Shown here: positions 10,774 through 21,685 of the stretch, in pieces
Position numbering within the stretch: position 1 is the stretch's first letter
How the letters are laid out: each line of letters starts with the position of its first letter
Origin: a virus
DNA: 22,991 nucleotides
Reading direction: 5' to 3' (one strand)
Virus record (IMG/VR): IMGVR_UViG_3300033999_000364
Location: 1-22,991 of that record
Program-made: the position numbers and the translations under genes
The notes under the pieces: generated by a model
What the model saw: only the letters and a program-made list of their open reading frames with translations
The model's database searches: none
What the model was told of the DNA's origin: nothing

Positions 10774-11241
10774 ATGAATACAATGAAGGCAAAAGATGCT
10801 GTCAGTGCTTCTTTAGCTGAATGTTTTGTTACCATTGATGGTAATAGATATAACTTCATGCAAGCAATTGACCTGGAAGCAACCTTTGAAAAGCAAAAAA
10901 CAGAAGTTCCCATTTTGGGTAAAACAGGCAGGGGTAATAAAAGCACTGGTTGGAGAGGAACAGGAACTGCAACCTTCCACTATAACACCAGTATTTTCAG
11001 GGAATTGCTTTACAGGTATAAGAACACTGGTGAAGATATTTACTTTGATATTCAGGTAACCAATGAAGACCCAACCAGTTCAGTTGGCAGACAAACGGTA
11101 ATTTTGAAAGACTGCAACATTGATGGTGGTATTTTAACCAAGTTTGACGCTGATGCAGATTATTTGGATGAAACATTGGACTTCACCTTTGAGGACTTTG
11201 AAATTCCTGAAAAATTTAATATGCTTCCTGGAATGAGATAA
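10774..11241 (+). CDS. xkdM: Tail tube protein (XkdM-like)
   Basis: This 155-aa protein forms the inner tube of the contractile tail. The PBSX XkdM-type pattern is visible: AECFVTIDGNRYNFMQAIDL, then KTEVPILGKTGRGNKSTGW and the C-terminal LDFTFEDFEIPEKF. ATG 10774 has an AAAGGGGTG site 9 nt upstream. Its place directly after the sheath and before the chaperone fits. It is mainly beta, as expected for a tube monomer. No anomalies were noticed. Confidence 0.94.
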   Translation: MNTMKAKDAVSASLAECFVTIDGNRYNFMQAIDLEATFEKQKTEVPILGKTGRGNKSTGWRGTGTATFHYNTSIFRELLYRYKNTGEDIYFDIQVTNEDPTSSVGRQTVILKDCNIDGGILTKFDADADYLDETLDFTFEDFEIPEKFNMLPGMR

Positions 11242-11261: not shown

Positions 11262-11693
11262 ATGAGTAATCTTTCAGCATTTTTGGCACAAAATGCCTTG
11301 AAAGTTGAGAATGTGAAACATGTTGTTTCAAAAAGATTTGTTGATGAAAAAGGGGAACCTATTCCTTGGGAAATTCGTTGTATTACTTCAACAGAAGATG
11401 AAGCTTTAAGAAAATCCTGCACTAAAAGGGTTCCCATTCCTGGTAAAAGAAATCAATATACACAGGAAGTTGACTATAACTTATATCTTGGAAAGTTAGC
11501 GGTAGCTTGCACTGTTTTCCCAAACCTTCATGACAAAGAACTTCAGGATAGTTATGGGGTTATGGGTGCAGATACATTGCTTAAAACCATGTTGACACCT
11601 GGGGAATATGCCGATTACCTGACCAAGATTCAAGAAATCAATGGTTTTGAAGTAAGCTTTGAAGAAGCGGTTGATGAAGCAAAAAACTCATAA
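11262..11693 (+). CDS. xkdN: Tail assembly chaperone, short form (XkdN-like)
   Basis: This 143-aa protein corresponds to XkdN of PBSX and acts like lambda gpG: it binds the tape measure protein and helps the tube polymerise around it. Recognisable pieces are the N-terminal MSNLSAFLAQNALKVENVKH, WEIRCITSTEDEALRKSC, and the later ELQDSYGVMGADTLLKTML. Just before the stop the codons GCA AAA AAC TCA TAA contain a canonical -1 slippery heptamer; the long chaperone form made by frameshifting is listed separately. The start has a GAAAGGATGATG region upstream. Confidence 0.92.
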   Translation: MSNLSAFLAQNALKVENVKHVVSKRFVDEKGEPIPWEIRCITSTEDEALRKSCTKRVPIPGKRNQYTQEVDYNLYLGKLAVACTVFPNLHDKELQDSYGVMGADTLLKTMLTPGEYADYLTKIQEINGFEVSFEEAVDEAKNS

Positions 11694-11735
11694 AAGAAGG
11701 CGATTTTGAAGCAAATATTGCTTACTATTGCCTTC
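11681..11735 (+). promoter_or_regulatory. Programmed -1 frameshift signal
   Basis: The slippery heptamer A AAA AAC (11681-11687) lies in the correct zero-frame phase (GCA AAA AAC). After an 8-nt spacer there is a nested hairpin: outer stem GAAGGC (11696-11701) with GCCTTC (11730-11735), and inner stem AAGCAA (11709-11714) with TTGCTT (11718-11723). Heptamer, spacer and stem-loop match the textbook layout of stimulated frameshifting. Confidence 0.85.
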
Positions 11736-11878
11736 ACAAGTTTAATATGCTTCCTTCTCAATTCTTGGCACTTGATAGACAAGAAAGGGCTTTTATTGTT
11801 GCAGCAATAGAAATCAAAGTTGAAGAAGATAAAAAGCGGGAAAAACAGATTAAGAAGCCCACAAGAAAGAAAAGGTAA
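11681..11878 (+). CDS. Frameshifted extension of the tail chaperone (gpGT-like)
   Basis: A -1 reading frame opens at the end of xkdN and runs to TAA 11876-11878. It has no usable start or ribosome binding site of its own, so it is probably reached by a -1 ribosomal shift at A AAA AAC (11681-11687). The fusion would be about 205 aa: 142 codons in frame 0, then 63 from CTC 11687. The extension reads LIKEGDFEANIAYYCLHKFN, then MLPSQFLALDRQERAFIVAA, with a very basic tail. Strings such as LDRQERAFIVAAIEIKVE are typical of the T segment of phage tail chaperones, which binds tube or tape measure. This explains an otherwise unassigned 240-bp stretch before the tape measure. Confidence 0.85.
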   Translation, partial: KKLIKEGDFEANIAYYCLHKFNMLPSQFLALDRQERAFIVAAIEIKVEEDKKREKQIKKPTRKKR

Positions 11879-11915
11879 CAGGATGGTTGTTTACAATGAC
11901 CATCCTGTTATCTAT
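11876..11915 (+). terminator. Strong hairpin after tail chaperone
   Basis: A perfect 12-bp inverted repeat, TAACAGGATGGT (11876-11887) with ACCATCCTGTTA (11899-11910), has an 11-nt loop. The left arm includes the stop codon of the frameshifted chaperone. The tail TCTATTTG is only weakly T-rich, so it may be a weak terminator or an mRNA-protecting hairpin before the tape measure gene. Confidence 0.6.
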
Positions 11916-11934: not shown

Positions 11935-14043
11935 ATGGCAACAATCAGAACTGCAATTCAAGTTTATGATGGAATGTCACCAGGGTTGAAAGCCATCACT
12001 AATGCACTAAACATTACTATTTCAAGCTTTGAAGCAATGCAAAGGGCTTCCAGTAATGCAATAGATACAAGTAGTATCCAGGCTGCAAGAGAACAATTAA
12101 ATAAGGCTGAAATTGCCTTTGATGAAGTTGAACGGGAAATTAAGCAAGCCAATGAACAGCAACAAAAATTTAATAATGAAATAAGAAATGGTCAAACTGC
12201 TGCAAGTGGACTTCATAGTAAATTTATGAAGATTGCTGCAACTGTTGGTGCTGTTTTAGGTGCAAAGCAAATTATTGGCTTATCGGATGAAATAACCCAA
12301 ACAACAGCAAGACTTAATATGATAAATGATGGACTTCAAACCACTGAACAACTTCAAAATATGATATTCCAATCTGCCCAAAGGTCAAGGGCTTCTTATG
12401 CTGATACTGCTGATATTGTTGCAAAGCTTGGATTGAGGGCTGGGGATGCTTTTGCTTCTAATGCTGAAACAATTGCATTTGCTGAAAACTTGAATAAAAT
12501 GTTTGTAGTTGCTGGTGCTTCACAACAGGAAATGGCTTCTGCAAGCTTACAATTGACACAGGCTTTAGGTTCAGGTGTTCTTCGTGGGGAAGAACTTAAT
12601 GCAGTGTTTGAAGCAGCACCTAATATTATTCAAACTATTGCTGATTACTTGGATGTTCCCATTGGTCAAATTCGTGATATGGCAGCGGAAGGTCAAATTA
12701 CTGCTGATATTGTAAAAAATGCAGTATTAAGTGCAACAGAAGAAATTAATCAGCAATTTGAAAGTATGCCAATGACCTTTGCCCAAATTTGGACAATGAT
12801 AAAGAATGAAGCTTTAATGGCTTTTCAACCAGTATTGCAAAGAATGAATGAAATCGGAAATAGTGAACGGTTTAATATTTTGATAAATAATCTTATCAAT
12901 GGAATAGTCATTCTTGCAACGGTGGCAGCGGAACTATTTGACATCATAACTTCAATTGCTGGTGTAATTTCTGATAATTGGTCATGGCTTGAACCTATTG
13001 TTTGGGGAATTGTGGGTGCTTTCATAGCTTATAATGCAGTTGCCCTTATTACCAATGCAATACTTGCTATTCAAGGAATACAGGCTAAAATTGCAGCAGC
13101 AAGTCAGATGATGCAGGCAGGTGCAACTTTTACTGCAACGGTAGCCCAGCATGGACTTAATGCAGCTTTATATGCTTGCCCATTGACTTGGATTATACTT
13201 TTAATCATTGCTTTAATAGCTTTGTTTTATGCAGCGGTTGCAGCAGTAAATCATTTTGCGGGAACATCAGTAAGTGCAACTGGAATTATTGTGGGTGCTT
13301 TTATGGTAGCACTTGCTTTTATAGGTAACCTATTTCTTGGATTGTGGAACTTAATTGTTGATGTTGCTGCTTCTATTTGGGATGTTATTGCAACGGTAGC
13401 TGAATTTTTAGCAAATGTATTTAATGACCCAATAGGTTCCATAGTAAGATTATTTGCTGGAATGGCTGATGCTGTTCTTGGTATTTTACAGGGTATTGCT
13501 AAAGCCATTGATGCCATATTTGGTTCCAATCTTGCTGAAGCTGTTAGCGGTTGGAGAAGTGGACTTAAAGGTGCAGTTGATGACCTGGTTGGTGAAGCTA
13601 AAATACAAATTCCAAGGCTGGACACCAGTTCATTATATTTAGACAGGTTTGAATACGGTAAAGCCTGGGAATATGGATATGCTGCTGGTGAAAAGTTTGA
13701 AGAAAGCATAAATCTGAAAAACATCTTGGGTGATGCTTCAAGAACATTGGATGCTTATGAACTTGGAAATCAACTTGATGGTATTTATAGTGGTGTTGAT
13801 AGCACAGCACTTAATACAGCAGCCATGAAAGATTCAATGGATGCAACTGAAGAAGAATTGAAATATTTAAGGGATATAGCCGAACAAGAAGTAATTAATA
13901 GGTTCACCACTGCTGAAATCAGAATTGATGCACCAATAAATGCAAATATTGCTTCCAACATGGATTTAGATGGAGTAGTAAATTACCTTGAAGAAAAACT
14001 TTATGAAACAATGCAAGTTGCAGCGGAAGGAGTGCATGAGTAA
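11935..14043 (+). CDS. Tail tape measure protein
   Basis: A 702-aa protein that sets tail length and is probably threaded through the tube. Residues about 1-100 form a helical, coiled-coil N-terminus. Residues about 100-285 contain the tape measure N-terminal domain with [20 protein letters not shown], then [20 protein letters not shown], a conserved string in many phages. At least four hydrophobic segments follow between about 320 and 490, such as [20 protein letters not shown]. The C-terminal 150 residues are hydrophilic. At this length the tail should be fairly short. The start has AAGGTAGGTGAG 5 nt upstream, and the stop overlaps the LysM gene start (TAATG). Confidence 0.94.
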
Positions 14044-18255: not shown

Positions 18256-20322
18256 ATGGGTAGTTTTAATAGTACAATTATCACTGCAAAAGGTCATGCA
18301 CTAATGGCAAAAGTTGCTTCAGGTGCAAGTATGCAATTCACAAGAATTCGTACTTCAGATTATCAATATCCTGTGGGAACAAATTTTGAAGGATTAACAA
18401 GCTTATCAAGTGTAAAACAAACAACTCTTGTTTCAAGTGTTTCAAGAATTAATGATGTTGCGGTAAAAGTAAGTGGTGCTTTTACCAATGCAGAACTTTC
18501 AACGGGGTACTATTTAAGGGTTATCGGATTATATGCCAATGACCCTGATGAAGGCGAAATCTTATATTCAATAACCACTGCAAACCAAGCTGACTGGATA
18601 CCACCAAACAATGGAATAAGTGCATCCAGCATATTGATTGATTTAATTACTATTGTTTCAAATGCTACAAATGTTACTATTGATGTTGACCCAAATGCAG
18701 TTGCAACAGTTACTGATTTGAATATGGTTAAAGCTGAAATATCTGATATAAAAGGCTTCATTGGTTATACAGATGATGATATTGTTGGTGTTGAAGCTGA
18801 TTTTAAAAATAAAAAATTTACAAGGCTTGCCGGTGCAGTAAATAAAAATCCTGGTGCTGACTTTGATTCAATTAAAGCCTTTGGTGGAAGAAAAAGATGC
18901 ATTGTAACTGATGATGGAAAGGTTCTTGCTTATTATGGTGAACCTGGGTACAGTGAAACCGGTAAGACAACAGTTGAAATTAAAAAGAATTCAGTTACTT
19001 ATCCGGTTGGAACAATAGTTCAGGTTATGGTAGAACAACCAAAATTCTATTATAAGGTTGTTCCTTTGGAACTTGAAAAAATACCTGATTATGTTGAAGT
19101 GAATACTCTTACAGTAACAGCAGGGGCAACAGCAGATGGGAATTTGACCATTACACTTGATGGTGTGGCTTTCACAGTTTCAGTTTTTGCTACAGATAAC
19201 ACACCTGAATTAGTTGCAGCAAAAATTAGAAATGCAACTTATACTGGTTGGACTACCGGTGGAACTGGTGCAAAAGTAACCTTTACTTGCAATACACCTG
19301 GTACAAAAACAACTGCAACATTTAATGGTGGTTCAACTGGTGTTACTGCAACAGTTGAAAAGACGGTTGCTGGTAGTATAAGTATTGGATACCATATGAG
19401 AAAAGCAAGATATTATGTATCTGATACTTATAAACCTGGCTTCAAAGTACATCCTGCTTTCATCAGAAATGGTGTAGTAAAAGATAAAATTTACTTGTCA
19501 GCCTATGAAGGCAGCATCTATGATGTATCAGCAGCAGCTTATTTATTGGCTGATGAACAGGTTGCTGATTTTACTGTTTCCACAGGTGATAAGCTTTCAT
19601 CCATTGCTTATGCTAAACCAGCAAGCGGATTAACACAAAACCTTACAAGGGCAAATACAAGAAAGCTTGCTAATAATAGGGGTGCTGGATGGCAGTTGTC
19701 AGATGTTCTATCTGCATCAGTAACCCAAATGCTTTTTATTATTGAATATGCATCCTTTAATACACAAGATAAGATTGGCTTGGGTATTGTAAATAAAACT
19801 GATGATGGTTCAACTAATATGAGTGAATTAACAGGTGCAACCACAAATTTAGGTAATGCTTCAGGAATAGCAGCCGGAACAAACGGATTGACTTCAGTTT
19901 CATATCGTGGTGAAGAAAATCCTTGGGGTAACATTTGGAAGTGGATGGATGGACTTAATATTGAAGCAAAAGGAATCCATCAAGCTTATTGGGCTGATAG
20001 TGGTTTTGCTGATGATATTAAAACCTCACCTTATAAAAATTGTGGTTTCACACTTGCAAAAGCAAATGGTTATGTATCAGCCTTTGGATACAGTGAAGAT
20101 TGTGATTTCTTATTCTTACCTTCAGAAGTAATTGGTGGATCTAACTTACCGGTAGGTGATTACTTCTATCAAAACCACAATTACAACGGGTTCTTGGTCG
20201 CTCTGTTGGGTGGCAGTTGGAATAGTGGTTCGAATGCTGGTGCTTTCTATTGGTATGTGAATGTTACGTCTTCTAGTCGTAGTCGGGCTATCGGCGGTCG
20301 GCTGCTGTATGTACCACAGTAA
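18256..20322 (+). CDS. Tail fibre / receptor-binding protein, DGR target
   Basis: This 688-aa protein carries the DGR variable repeat and is the likely host-recognition fibre. Residues 1-160 resemble tail-collar fibre N-termini: SFNSTIITAKGHALMAKVASG, a basal attachment domain. Residues about 279-377 look like an inserted Ig-like beta domain (EVNTLTVTAGATADGNLTI, then GGSTGVTATVEKTVAG), placed between a KFYYKVVPLELEKIPDY strand and GYHMRKARYYVSDTYKPGF. The C-terminus, about 420-688, is a C-type lectin/formylglycine-type domain as used by DGR targets: NPWGNIWKWMDGLNIEAKG, then LLGGSWNSGSNAGAFYW and SRAIGGRLLYVPQ. The VR covers residues 644-686, and hypervariable positions sit in this exposed end. 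ATG 18256 has AAAGGTGGAAAG upstream. Confidence 0.94.
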   Translation: MGSFNSTIITAKGHALMAKVASGASMQFTRIRTSDYQYPVGTNFEGLTSLSSVKQTTLVSSVSRINDVAVKVSGAFTNAELSTGYYLRVIGLYANDPDEGEILYSITTANQADWIPPNNGISASSILIDLITIVSNATNVTIDVDPNAVATVTDLNMVKAEISDIKGFIGYTDDDIVGVEADFKNKKFTRLAGAVNKNPGADFDSIKAFGGRKRCIVTDDGKVLAYYGEPGYSETGKTTVEIKKNSVTYPVGTIVQVMVEQPKFYYKVVPLELEKIPDYVEVNTLTVTAGATADGNLTITLDGVAFTVSVFATDNTPELVAAKIRNATYTGWTTGGTGAKVTFTCNTPGTKTTATFNGGSTGVTATVEKTVAGSISIGYHMRKARYYVSDTYKPGFKVHPAFIRNGVVKDKIYLSAYEGSIYDVSAAAYLLADEQVADFTVSTGDKLSSIAYAKPASGLTQNLTRANTRKLANNRGAGWQLSDVLSASVTQMLFIIEYASFNTQDKIGLGIVNKTDDGSTNMSELTGATTNLGNASGIAAGTNGLTSVSYRGEENPWGNIWKWMDGLNIEAKGIHQAYWADSGFADDIKTSPYKNCGFTLAKANGYVSAFGYSEDCDFLFLPSEVIGGSNLPVGDYFYQNHNYNGFLVALLGGSWNSGSNAGAFYWYVNVTSSSRSRAIGGRLLYVPQ
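20187..20311 (+). repeat. DGR variable repeat (VR)
   Basis: This 125-bp repeat at the 3' end of the fibre gene aligns without gaps to the TR at 20368-20492. It differs at 22 positions, every one an A in TR: 18 are G, 3 are T and 1 is C in VR. The changes hit 20 codons; 5 are silent (TTA to TTG, CTA to CTG) and 15 change the residue, including Asn to Ser, Tyr, Val and Ala. Confidence 0.98.
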
Positions 20323-20335
20323 TTAATATTTCTAT

Positions 20336-20347
20336 GGGCAAGTAAAA
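20336..20347 (+). repeat. Left arm of inverted repeat bracketing the TR
   Basis: GGGCAAGTAAAA is the exact reverse complement of TTTTACTTGCCC at 20514-20525. It lies 20 nt before the TR and the partner 21 nt after it, so in RNA the two arms could close a 190-nt stem-loop holding the whole TR. Confidence 0.85.
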
Positions 20348-20367
20348 GATATTCTAATATTAAAAAC

Positions 20368-20492
20368 CAGGTTCTTAGTCACTCTATTAGGTGGCAATTG
20401 GAATAATGGTTCGAATACTGGTACTTTCTATTGGAATGTGAATAATACGTCTTCTAATCGTAATCGGAATATCAGCAGTCAGCTACTAAATG
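20368..20492 (+). repeat. DGR template repeat (TR)
   Basis: This 125-bp repeat is the invariant template. It has 37 adenines, 22 of which differ in VR, and 88 non-A bases, none of which differ. Read in the VR frame it encodes a CLec-type end with 11 Asn codons, all AAT, of which 8 are altered in VR. AAY codons can diversify to many residues but not to stops when only the A positions change. Confidence 0.98.
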
Positions 20493-20513
20493 CACTATAA
20501 ATCATAATGTAAG

Positions 20514-20525
20514 TTTTACTTGCCC
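20514..20525 (+). repeat. Right arm of inverted repeat bracketing the TR
   Basis: TTTTACTTGCCC is the perfect complement of the left arm at 20336-20347. It is followed directly by the small hairpin at 20526-20537, so the two helices could stack. Confidence 0.85.
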
Positions 20526-20626
20526 TGCCTCTTGGCAAAACATAAAAATCAACTACTGCTGTATTGGTAGGCTTCATTTGAAGTTCGACGATTCAGCAAT
20601 AGTGCATACAAAAGAAGGTTGACAAC

Positions 20627-21685
20627 GTGAAGCGATATGGGAATTTATACAAAAAGATTTATGATTTAGATAATTTAAGGCTTGCACATAAGAATGCCAA
20701 GAAGGGAAAAGGATGGTATAAGGAAGTTAAAATGGTTGATGCTGATGAAGAATATTATTTGAAGTTGCTTCAAGAAATGCTTATAAATAAAACCTATAAT
20801 ACTTCCGAATATGAAATCTTTATTAAAAAAGATGGTGAAAAGGAACGTGAAATATATAAATTACCATATTTCCCTGATAGAATATGCCAATGGGCAATTC
20901 TGCAAGTAATTGAACCTATACTAATAAACAATTTTACCAAAGACACCTATTCAGCCATACCAGGAAGGGGAATTCATCAAGCTTTAAAAAGATTAAAAGC
21001 TGCAATTCAAAATGATGTTCCAGGAACACAATATTGCTTGAAGCTTGATGTTAAAAAGTATTATCCATCAATTGACCATAATATTTTGAAAGCAAAATAT
21101 AGAAGAATTTTCAAAGATAAAGATTTATTATGGTTGCTTGATGAAATCATTGATTCAACACCTGGTGATGTAGGAATACCTATTGGAAATTATCTTTCAC
21201 AGTATTCAGGCAACTTTTATTTAAGTTCTTTTGACCATTGGATTAAAGAAGTCAAGAAAGTGAAGTATTACTTCAGATATATGGATGACATTGTAATCCT
21301 GGGAAGCAGTAAGGAAGAACTTCACAAATTAAAAATAGAAGTTGATGAATATTTAAGAAATAAATTAAATCTTACCATCAAAGAAAACTGGCAGGTATTT
21401 CTTACATTTATAAGGGGAATTGATTTTGTTGGATACAGGGTTTTCTTAAACTATACATTACTTCGGAAATCAACTTGTAAAAGCTTTAAGCGAAAAATGC
21501 GAAACATCAACAAGAAAAGGCTAAATGGTCAAGAATTGAATTATTCTGAATGGTGTTCAATTAATTCTTATAAAGGTTGGCTGAAGTGGTGTGATAGTTA
21601 TAGATTAAGTCAAAAGTACATTAAGCCTATTGAACAATTTGCACAGGATTATTATGAAAAATATGTTAAAAGAAAGGTGGATTAA
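20627..21685 (+). CDS. DGR reverse transcriptase
   Basis: A 352-aa reverse transcriptase that copies the template RNA with misincorporation at adenines. Motifs in order: an N-terminal KRYGNLYKKIYDLDNLRLA segment seen in DGR RTs, LKLDVKKYYPSID at 138-150 (catalytic D141), IGNYLSQ at 186-192, the I/LGxxxSQ form that marks DGR RTs in place of the usual QG motif, and the catalytic YMDD at 218-221. A thumb-like region with RGIDFVGYRVF (263-273) follows. Length is typical. The start is GTG with AAGAAGG about 8 nt upstream. It lies right after TR in the usual order VR-TR-RT. No frameshift or missing catalytic residue is seen, so the enzyme looks intact. Confidence 0.97.
   Translation: MKRYGNLYKKIYDLDNLRLAHKNAKKGKGWYKEVKMVDADEEYYLKLLQEMLINKTYNTSEYEIFIKKDGEKEREIYKLPYFPDRICQWAILQVIEPILINNFTKDTYSAIPGRGIHQALKRLKAAIQNDVPGTQYCLKLDVKKYYPSIDHNILKAKYRRIFKDKDLLWLLDEIIDSTPGDVGIPIGNYLSQYSGNFYLSSFDHWIKEVKKVKYYFRYMDDIVILGSSKEELHKLKIEVDEYLRNKLNLTIKENWQVFLTFIRGIDFVGYRVFLNYTLLRKSTCKSFKRKMRNINKKRLNGQELNYSEWCSINSYKGWLKWCDSYRLSQKYIKPIEQFAQDYYEKYVKRKVD

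Follow-up and report, generated by a model that had tools for sequence, protein, structure and literature searches.

Is the xkdN gene of a contractile-tailed phage read as a single tail assembly chaperone, or as a short and a long form made by programmed −1 frameshifting? The question is raised by a virus record of 22,991 bases (the whole stretch analyzed, hereafter the window) that carries a contractile-tail operon. In this operon, xkdN follows the tail tube protein gene and precedes the tape measure protein gene, which is the G/GT gene order. The initial annotation had interpreted the end of xkdN as a G/GT-type programmed frameshift. The features concerned are:

10774–11241, plus strand: tail tube protein gene, 5′ of xkdN (PF09393)
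11262–11693, plus strand: xkdN, short (G-like) tail assembly chaperone, an open reading frame of 143 amino acids plus stop
11681–11687, plus strand: candidate slippery heptamer A AAA AAC, in phase with xkdN and conserved in relatives
11684–11878, plus strand: −1 frame extension (T-like), open for 64 codons as translated here plus stop
11691–11693, plus strand: zero-frame stop TAA, one codon past the heptamer
11696–11735, plus strand: stem-loop, likely stimulator, 8 nt past the heptamer
11935–14043, plus strand: tape measure protein gene, 3′ of xkdN (PF20155)

XkdN is a Phage_TAC_5 tail assembly chaperone. It scored 178 bits against PF08890 (curated cut-off 27, residues 4–141, E 1.1e-52), and its predicted structure (pLDDT 90.8) matched YqbN (PDB 3KLU; Z 17.4, rmsd 1.5, 117 residues) and, more weakly, HK97 gp13 (PDB 2OB9; Z 6.2, rmsd 4.7, 97 residues, 7% identity). 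The accessible part of PMC9603447 terms both of these proteins tail assembly chaperones; they resemble XkdN in fold, gp13 weakly so, whereas the −1 extension had no counterpart among solved structures. According to the portion of PMC11948020 available, a putative XkdN-like chaperone was undetected in phiCD508 virions, as expected of an assembly chaperone. In the records of phiCDKH02, PVJ1, and MissE2 (L082, L091, L096), XkdN is labelled "portal protein", apparently a propagated misannotation. Between 11200 and 12000 we found no promoter-like excess and no terminator-like site. Farther along, the window contains a diversity-generating retroelement (18256–21685), in which 21 of the 22 differences between the repeats fall at template adenines:

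18256–20322: tail-fibre gene (PF12571)
20189–20314: variable repeat, at the end of the tail-fibre gene
20370–20495: template repeat, 83% identical to the variable repeat
20521–20611: RT-17 RNA match
20627–21685: reverse transcriptase gene (PF00078)

Conservation of the slippery heptamer

The 3′ end of xkdN reads GCA AAA AAC TCA TAA in codons, so that A AAA AAC is phased for tandem −1 slippage. The phase claimed initially was thus correct, and the distance to the stop needs adjusting from 4 nt to three bases. We compared this site across 294 related loci, comprising 199 viral loci and 80 from genome contigs, both located by patterns inside the xkdN body and away from the slip site, and 15 named phage records; many of these hardly differ from one another, most notably the PBSX-like loci, and EJ-1 is counted twice (L093 and L210 are the same sequence). 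A non-redundant set of 128 loci, differing by >10% over 90 nt, was drawn from the 288 usable among 295 including the window (the other seven lacked the six-A run at the stop or enough downstream sequence). It was divided into 99 close loci (≥45% XkdN identity to the window) and 29 more distant ones. Separately, 398 genomes sampled from one phylum were searched for PF08890, which was detected in 51 of them, at 72 places. Of these places 69 were read; two of the three left out were fragments of 31 aa at the ends of contigs, and the third was a match within an unrelated frame of 668 aa.

Of the 294 related loci, 287 had an in-phase A AAA AAC at position −7, −10, or −13 relative to the xkdN stop. 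The remaining seven comprised A AAA AAT in two (L119, L122), A AAA AAA in L204, a truncated locus (L150), an earlier break of the xkdN frame with the heptamer kept (L075), and the two entries of EJ-1. In EJ-1, XkdN and the extension are read as a single in-frame fusion, explained by one extra base just upstream of the slip site relative to the close relatives Javan336 and MismyG. Among the Phage_TAC_5 places of the sampled genomes, 61/69 had A AAA AAC within 13 nt of the stop (16/16 plus-strand loci, 13/14 minus-strand loci, and 32/39 places fetched by coordinates). The other eight had A AAA AAC at 37 nt before the stop (two), A AAA AAA (three), A AAA AAT (one), A AAA AAG further upstream, found by eye (L315), or, in a broken fragment (L361), none of these. 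At control ORF ends from the related loci, A AAA AAC was in phase at these three positions in 0/424 and any X XXY YYZ heptamer in 9/424. Where a C-to-T change at base 7 of the heptamer would be silent in both proteins, C was retained in 118/121 loci; in the xkdN body, AAC accounts for 384 of 931 Asn codons. These counts support an unusually well conserved signal, retained beyond chance and beyond coding need. An Rfam search of the whole window at gathering score, covering families that include described frameshift elements, returned no family at the slip site, and between 11500 and 12000 there were just sub-threshold matches to unrelated families.

Downstream stem-loop and stop codon

The RNA from 11688 to 11745 is predicted to fold at −18.2 kcal/mol (z −5.0 against dinucleotide shuffles), with an outer stem of 9 bp (11696–11704/11727–11735) and an inner stem of 6 bp (11709–11714/11718–11723). 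The 8-nt spacer initially described holds, with GAAGGC beginning at 11696. The nested GAAGGC/GCCTTC and AAGCAA/TTGCTT pairings are both present, the outer one being longer than the 6 bp given. For 67/99 close loci, the native sequence ranks in the top 10 for folding against 200 synonymous recodings (about 5 loci expected), as it does for 11/29 distant loci; the stem is not universal, since 32/99 close and 18/29 distant loci fold no clearly better than their recodings.

Covariation was assessed by pair counting and class-wise counting, because RNAalifold returned no consensus structure for the 99-row alignment. In alignment A3, the window structure paired 77.6% of cells, against 74.6% (sd 0.5) in shuffles and at most 53.1% in slid versions, and 96 cells were changed on both sides against 43.6 (sd 9.6); two of the five pair-count measures did not exceed shuffles, double-change pairs numbering 7 (shuffles 8.0) and further pair types 25 (shuffles 27.7). 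Loci were also classed by an encoded residue (Cys, Ala/Val, or Trp). Among the 81 loci of the Cys class, the combination of column 20 with column 63, the Leu wobble position, was A-U in 34 rows, G-C in 25, G-U in 4, and A-C in 0 (63 rows; Fisher p about 1e-13, without correction for common ancestry); column 63 was G, A, or gapped in the other 18. Where the Cys codon becomes Ala, the register of the stem switches: in the Ala/Val class (15 loci) the 3′ arm is shifted one base upstream, and at least 8/9 positions pair in this shifted register in 11/15 loci, against 0/81 of the Cys class. The Glu codon tracks class as well (Cys class: GAA 32, GAG 5; Ala/Val class: GAA 1, GAG 10), and the three Trp-class loci pair poorly in either register. 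An exchange-of-arms control was modestly exceeded (7.82/9 paired; control mean 7.38, maximum 7.51 in 500 runs), the small margin reflecting that coding sequence alone retains much of the pairing. Judging from these patterns, the stem is conserved, covarying, and under selection as RNA.

The zero-frame stop abuts the heptamer in 121/128 loci and lies one codon off in six, including the window, and two codons off in one. Of 124 cases with CTN as the first −1 codon, 94 have CTA and 118 have CTA or CTG, whereas elsewhere CTA makes up 13% of CTN codons and the two together 46%; this excess over codon usage indicates a preference for a stop immediately after the heptamer. In bacteria, a slippery site can give more slippage when a stop codon follows it. 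We tentatively suggest, while considering it rather unlikely, that in the XkdN family the stop forms part of the frameshift signal, giving a second chance to slip while the release factor is awaited, so that termination speed and the register-switching stem would set the ratio of short to long product. If so, the window, with its one-codon spacing, would be a natural variant testing that idea.

Another hairpin (11873–11914; 12-bp perfect core, −25.9 kcal/mol, no T run) occupies the interval separating the extension from the tape measure gene. Among close relatives, L006, L007, and L009–L013 carry a hairpin of other sequence at this site, and L014 and L025 have none; perfect stems of at least 8 bp between the extension and the tape measure gene occur in 16/128 loci.

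The −1 frame extension and competing explanations

The −1 frame here reads LIKEGDFEANIAYYCLHKF and continues to a basic end, its stop ending at 11878, in agreement with the basic T-like extension initially proposed. The model of the extension (pLDDT 84.8) has three predicted helices and a basic tail. In the −1 frame, pN/pS was 0.19 for codons 3–17 and 0.24 for codons 18–48, against values above 1 in both other frames, with 0.30 for the last 50 codons of xkdN (122 non-independent pairs among 60 loci). Its pS was 0.46 in the stem part and 0.71 past the stem, as expected if RNA structure adds constraint. By these substitution patterns, the extension evolves as a protein. Its model matched nothing in the PDB below E 5 and gave weak matches in BFVD, the best at E 0.02 to an uncharacterised myovirus protein and two at E 1.2 named tail assembly chaperone. 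NCBIfam yielded no match; each of five PHROG families of unknown function (20560, 10943, 5646, 33439, and 28231) had matches from between 17 and 41 of the 52 extensions compared. A profile match to a designed helical repeat (E 2.4e-4, helix only) was taken as compositional.

The extension could instead be a separate small gene, initiated at its own start or by re-initiation after the xkdN stop. The initial annotation had given it no start of its own; there is an ATG in the −1 frame at 11747, 22 codons past the heptamer start, although no Shine–Dalgarno-like motif precedes it and its use as a start is not conserved in relatives. Annotated records lend this explanation some weight: of 15, none marks a frameshift, nine omit the extension, one shows the fusion (EJ-1), and five list a portion of the extension as a hypothetical protein in its own right. 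An early −1 start codon with a Shine–Dalgarno-like motif also occurs in 18/128 loci, including a GGAGG-ATG group. Yet the −1 frame lacks a start codon up to codon 22 in 81/128 loci and over the full length of the extension in 10, residue conservation sets in at the heptamer, ahead of any such start, and a separate gene has no need for the doubly silent C at base 7. We consider it very improbable. In the GGAGG-ATG group (L051, L056, L110, L124, and L125), GGAGG is followed by a −1 ATG inside the stem, about 24 nt past the heptamer start, which might offer the extension an alternative point of initiation.

Slippage of RNA polymerase on the A run, producing mixed messages without ribosomal slippage, would be consistent with the slip site being such a run and with the longer A runs of the distant L343, L348, L353, and L355. 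Six As are short for polymerase slippage, however, and the run is exactly six in 127/128 loci and seven in one (a set picked for six As and hence uninformative about their conservation); the conserved C and the downstream RNA stem would moreover be needless. This mechanism is extremely improbable, and both it and an independent gene were rejected on the evidence of start codons, the A run, and the base-7 C. Barely credible is a decayed or mis-sequenced single gene, its frame split by a chance indel: indels do occur here, as in the EJ-1 fusion and the frame break of L075, but the arrangement recurs in 287/294 loci with purifying selection on the extension, and conservation rules out a decayed remnant in the window. 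The reading preferred over all of these is programmed −1 frameshifting by the ribosome, which the conservation of heptamer, extension, and stem, each beyond chance and coding need, supports as initially proposed.

Proposed mechanism and relation to known systems

We propose that normal reading of xkdN would give a short tail assembly chaperone of 143 aa, and that a fraction of ribosomes would slip back one base on A AAA AAC (11681–11687), helped by the stem-loop beginning 8 nt downstream. Translation continued in the −1 frame as far as 11878 would add a small, basic, helical C-terminal domain, for a long chaperone of about 205 aa. If the two products act as lambda gpG and gpGT do, the tape measure protein may be coated by the short form and the tail tube protein recruited by the long form, the rarer of the two. 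To this reading as a whole, which includes stem-aided slippage and lambda-like roles, we assign a probability of roughly 93%. The heptamer and its phase, the open extension and its selection as protein, the selection on the stem as RNA, and the chaperone fold come from the sequence, whereas the slippage itself, its efficiency, and the roles of both products are what we infer.

The lambda slip site is G GGA AAG, whereas the window has A AAA AAC, and in the XkdN family the stop follows immediately or one codon later. XkdN loci further differ from lambda in their conserved, covarying downstream stem, their contractile tail, and their chaperone family. The portion of PMC5009743 available describes the mechanism of the lambda gpG/gpGT −1 frameshift and its wide conservation (Levin 1993; Xu, Hendrix and Duda 2004), in line with the initial statement that such frameshifts before the tape measure gene are conserved in long-tailed phages. 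As far as that account goes, lambda shares with the window a small gene before the tape measure gene, an in-phase slippery heptamer near its end, a −1 extension without a clear start of its own, and a chaperone role, here by analogy. A putative −1 frameshift is also given for SPP1 gp17.5/gp17.5* in the accessible part of PMC6316719; this too concerns a tail chaperone with a putative −1 extension in a phage of Gram-positive bacteria, although gp17.5* has a U UUU UUC site and a longer extension, and SPP1 is a siphovirus. From the sections available, the survey of Xu 2004 covered 28 phages (PMC10885494), and A_AAA_AAC is among the consensus heptamers, with 6% and 7% frameshifting measured for two genes belonging to an HK97-like tail chaperone cluster (PMC3711429). 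We found no description of a frameshift in the XkdN family in the literature searched, which mostly excludes subscription papers, so one may be in print; the accessible parts of PMC12671070 and PMC9406221 treat xkdN without a frameshift.

Taken together, gene position, the conserved in-phase heptamer, and a −1 frame selected as protein without a conserved start strongly support a lambda G/GT-type −1 frameshift in the window, known in kind and here placed, on comparative grounds, in the XkdN family. Less expected in such a frameshift are the clear, conserved stem and the site abutting the stop. The XkdN group of contractile phage tails, PBSX-like ones included, would thereby gain a well-supported long chaperone that records have mostly missed, and the five PHROG families could be named as T-like domains. 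XkdN loci would also offer a natural variant set for A AAA AAC slippage beside a stop codon in bacteria.
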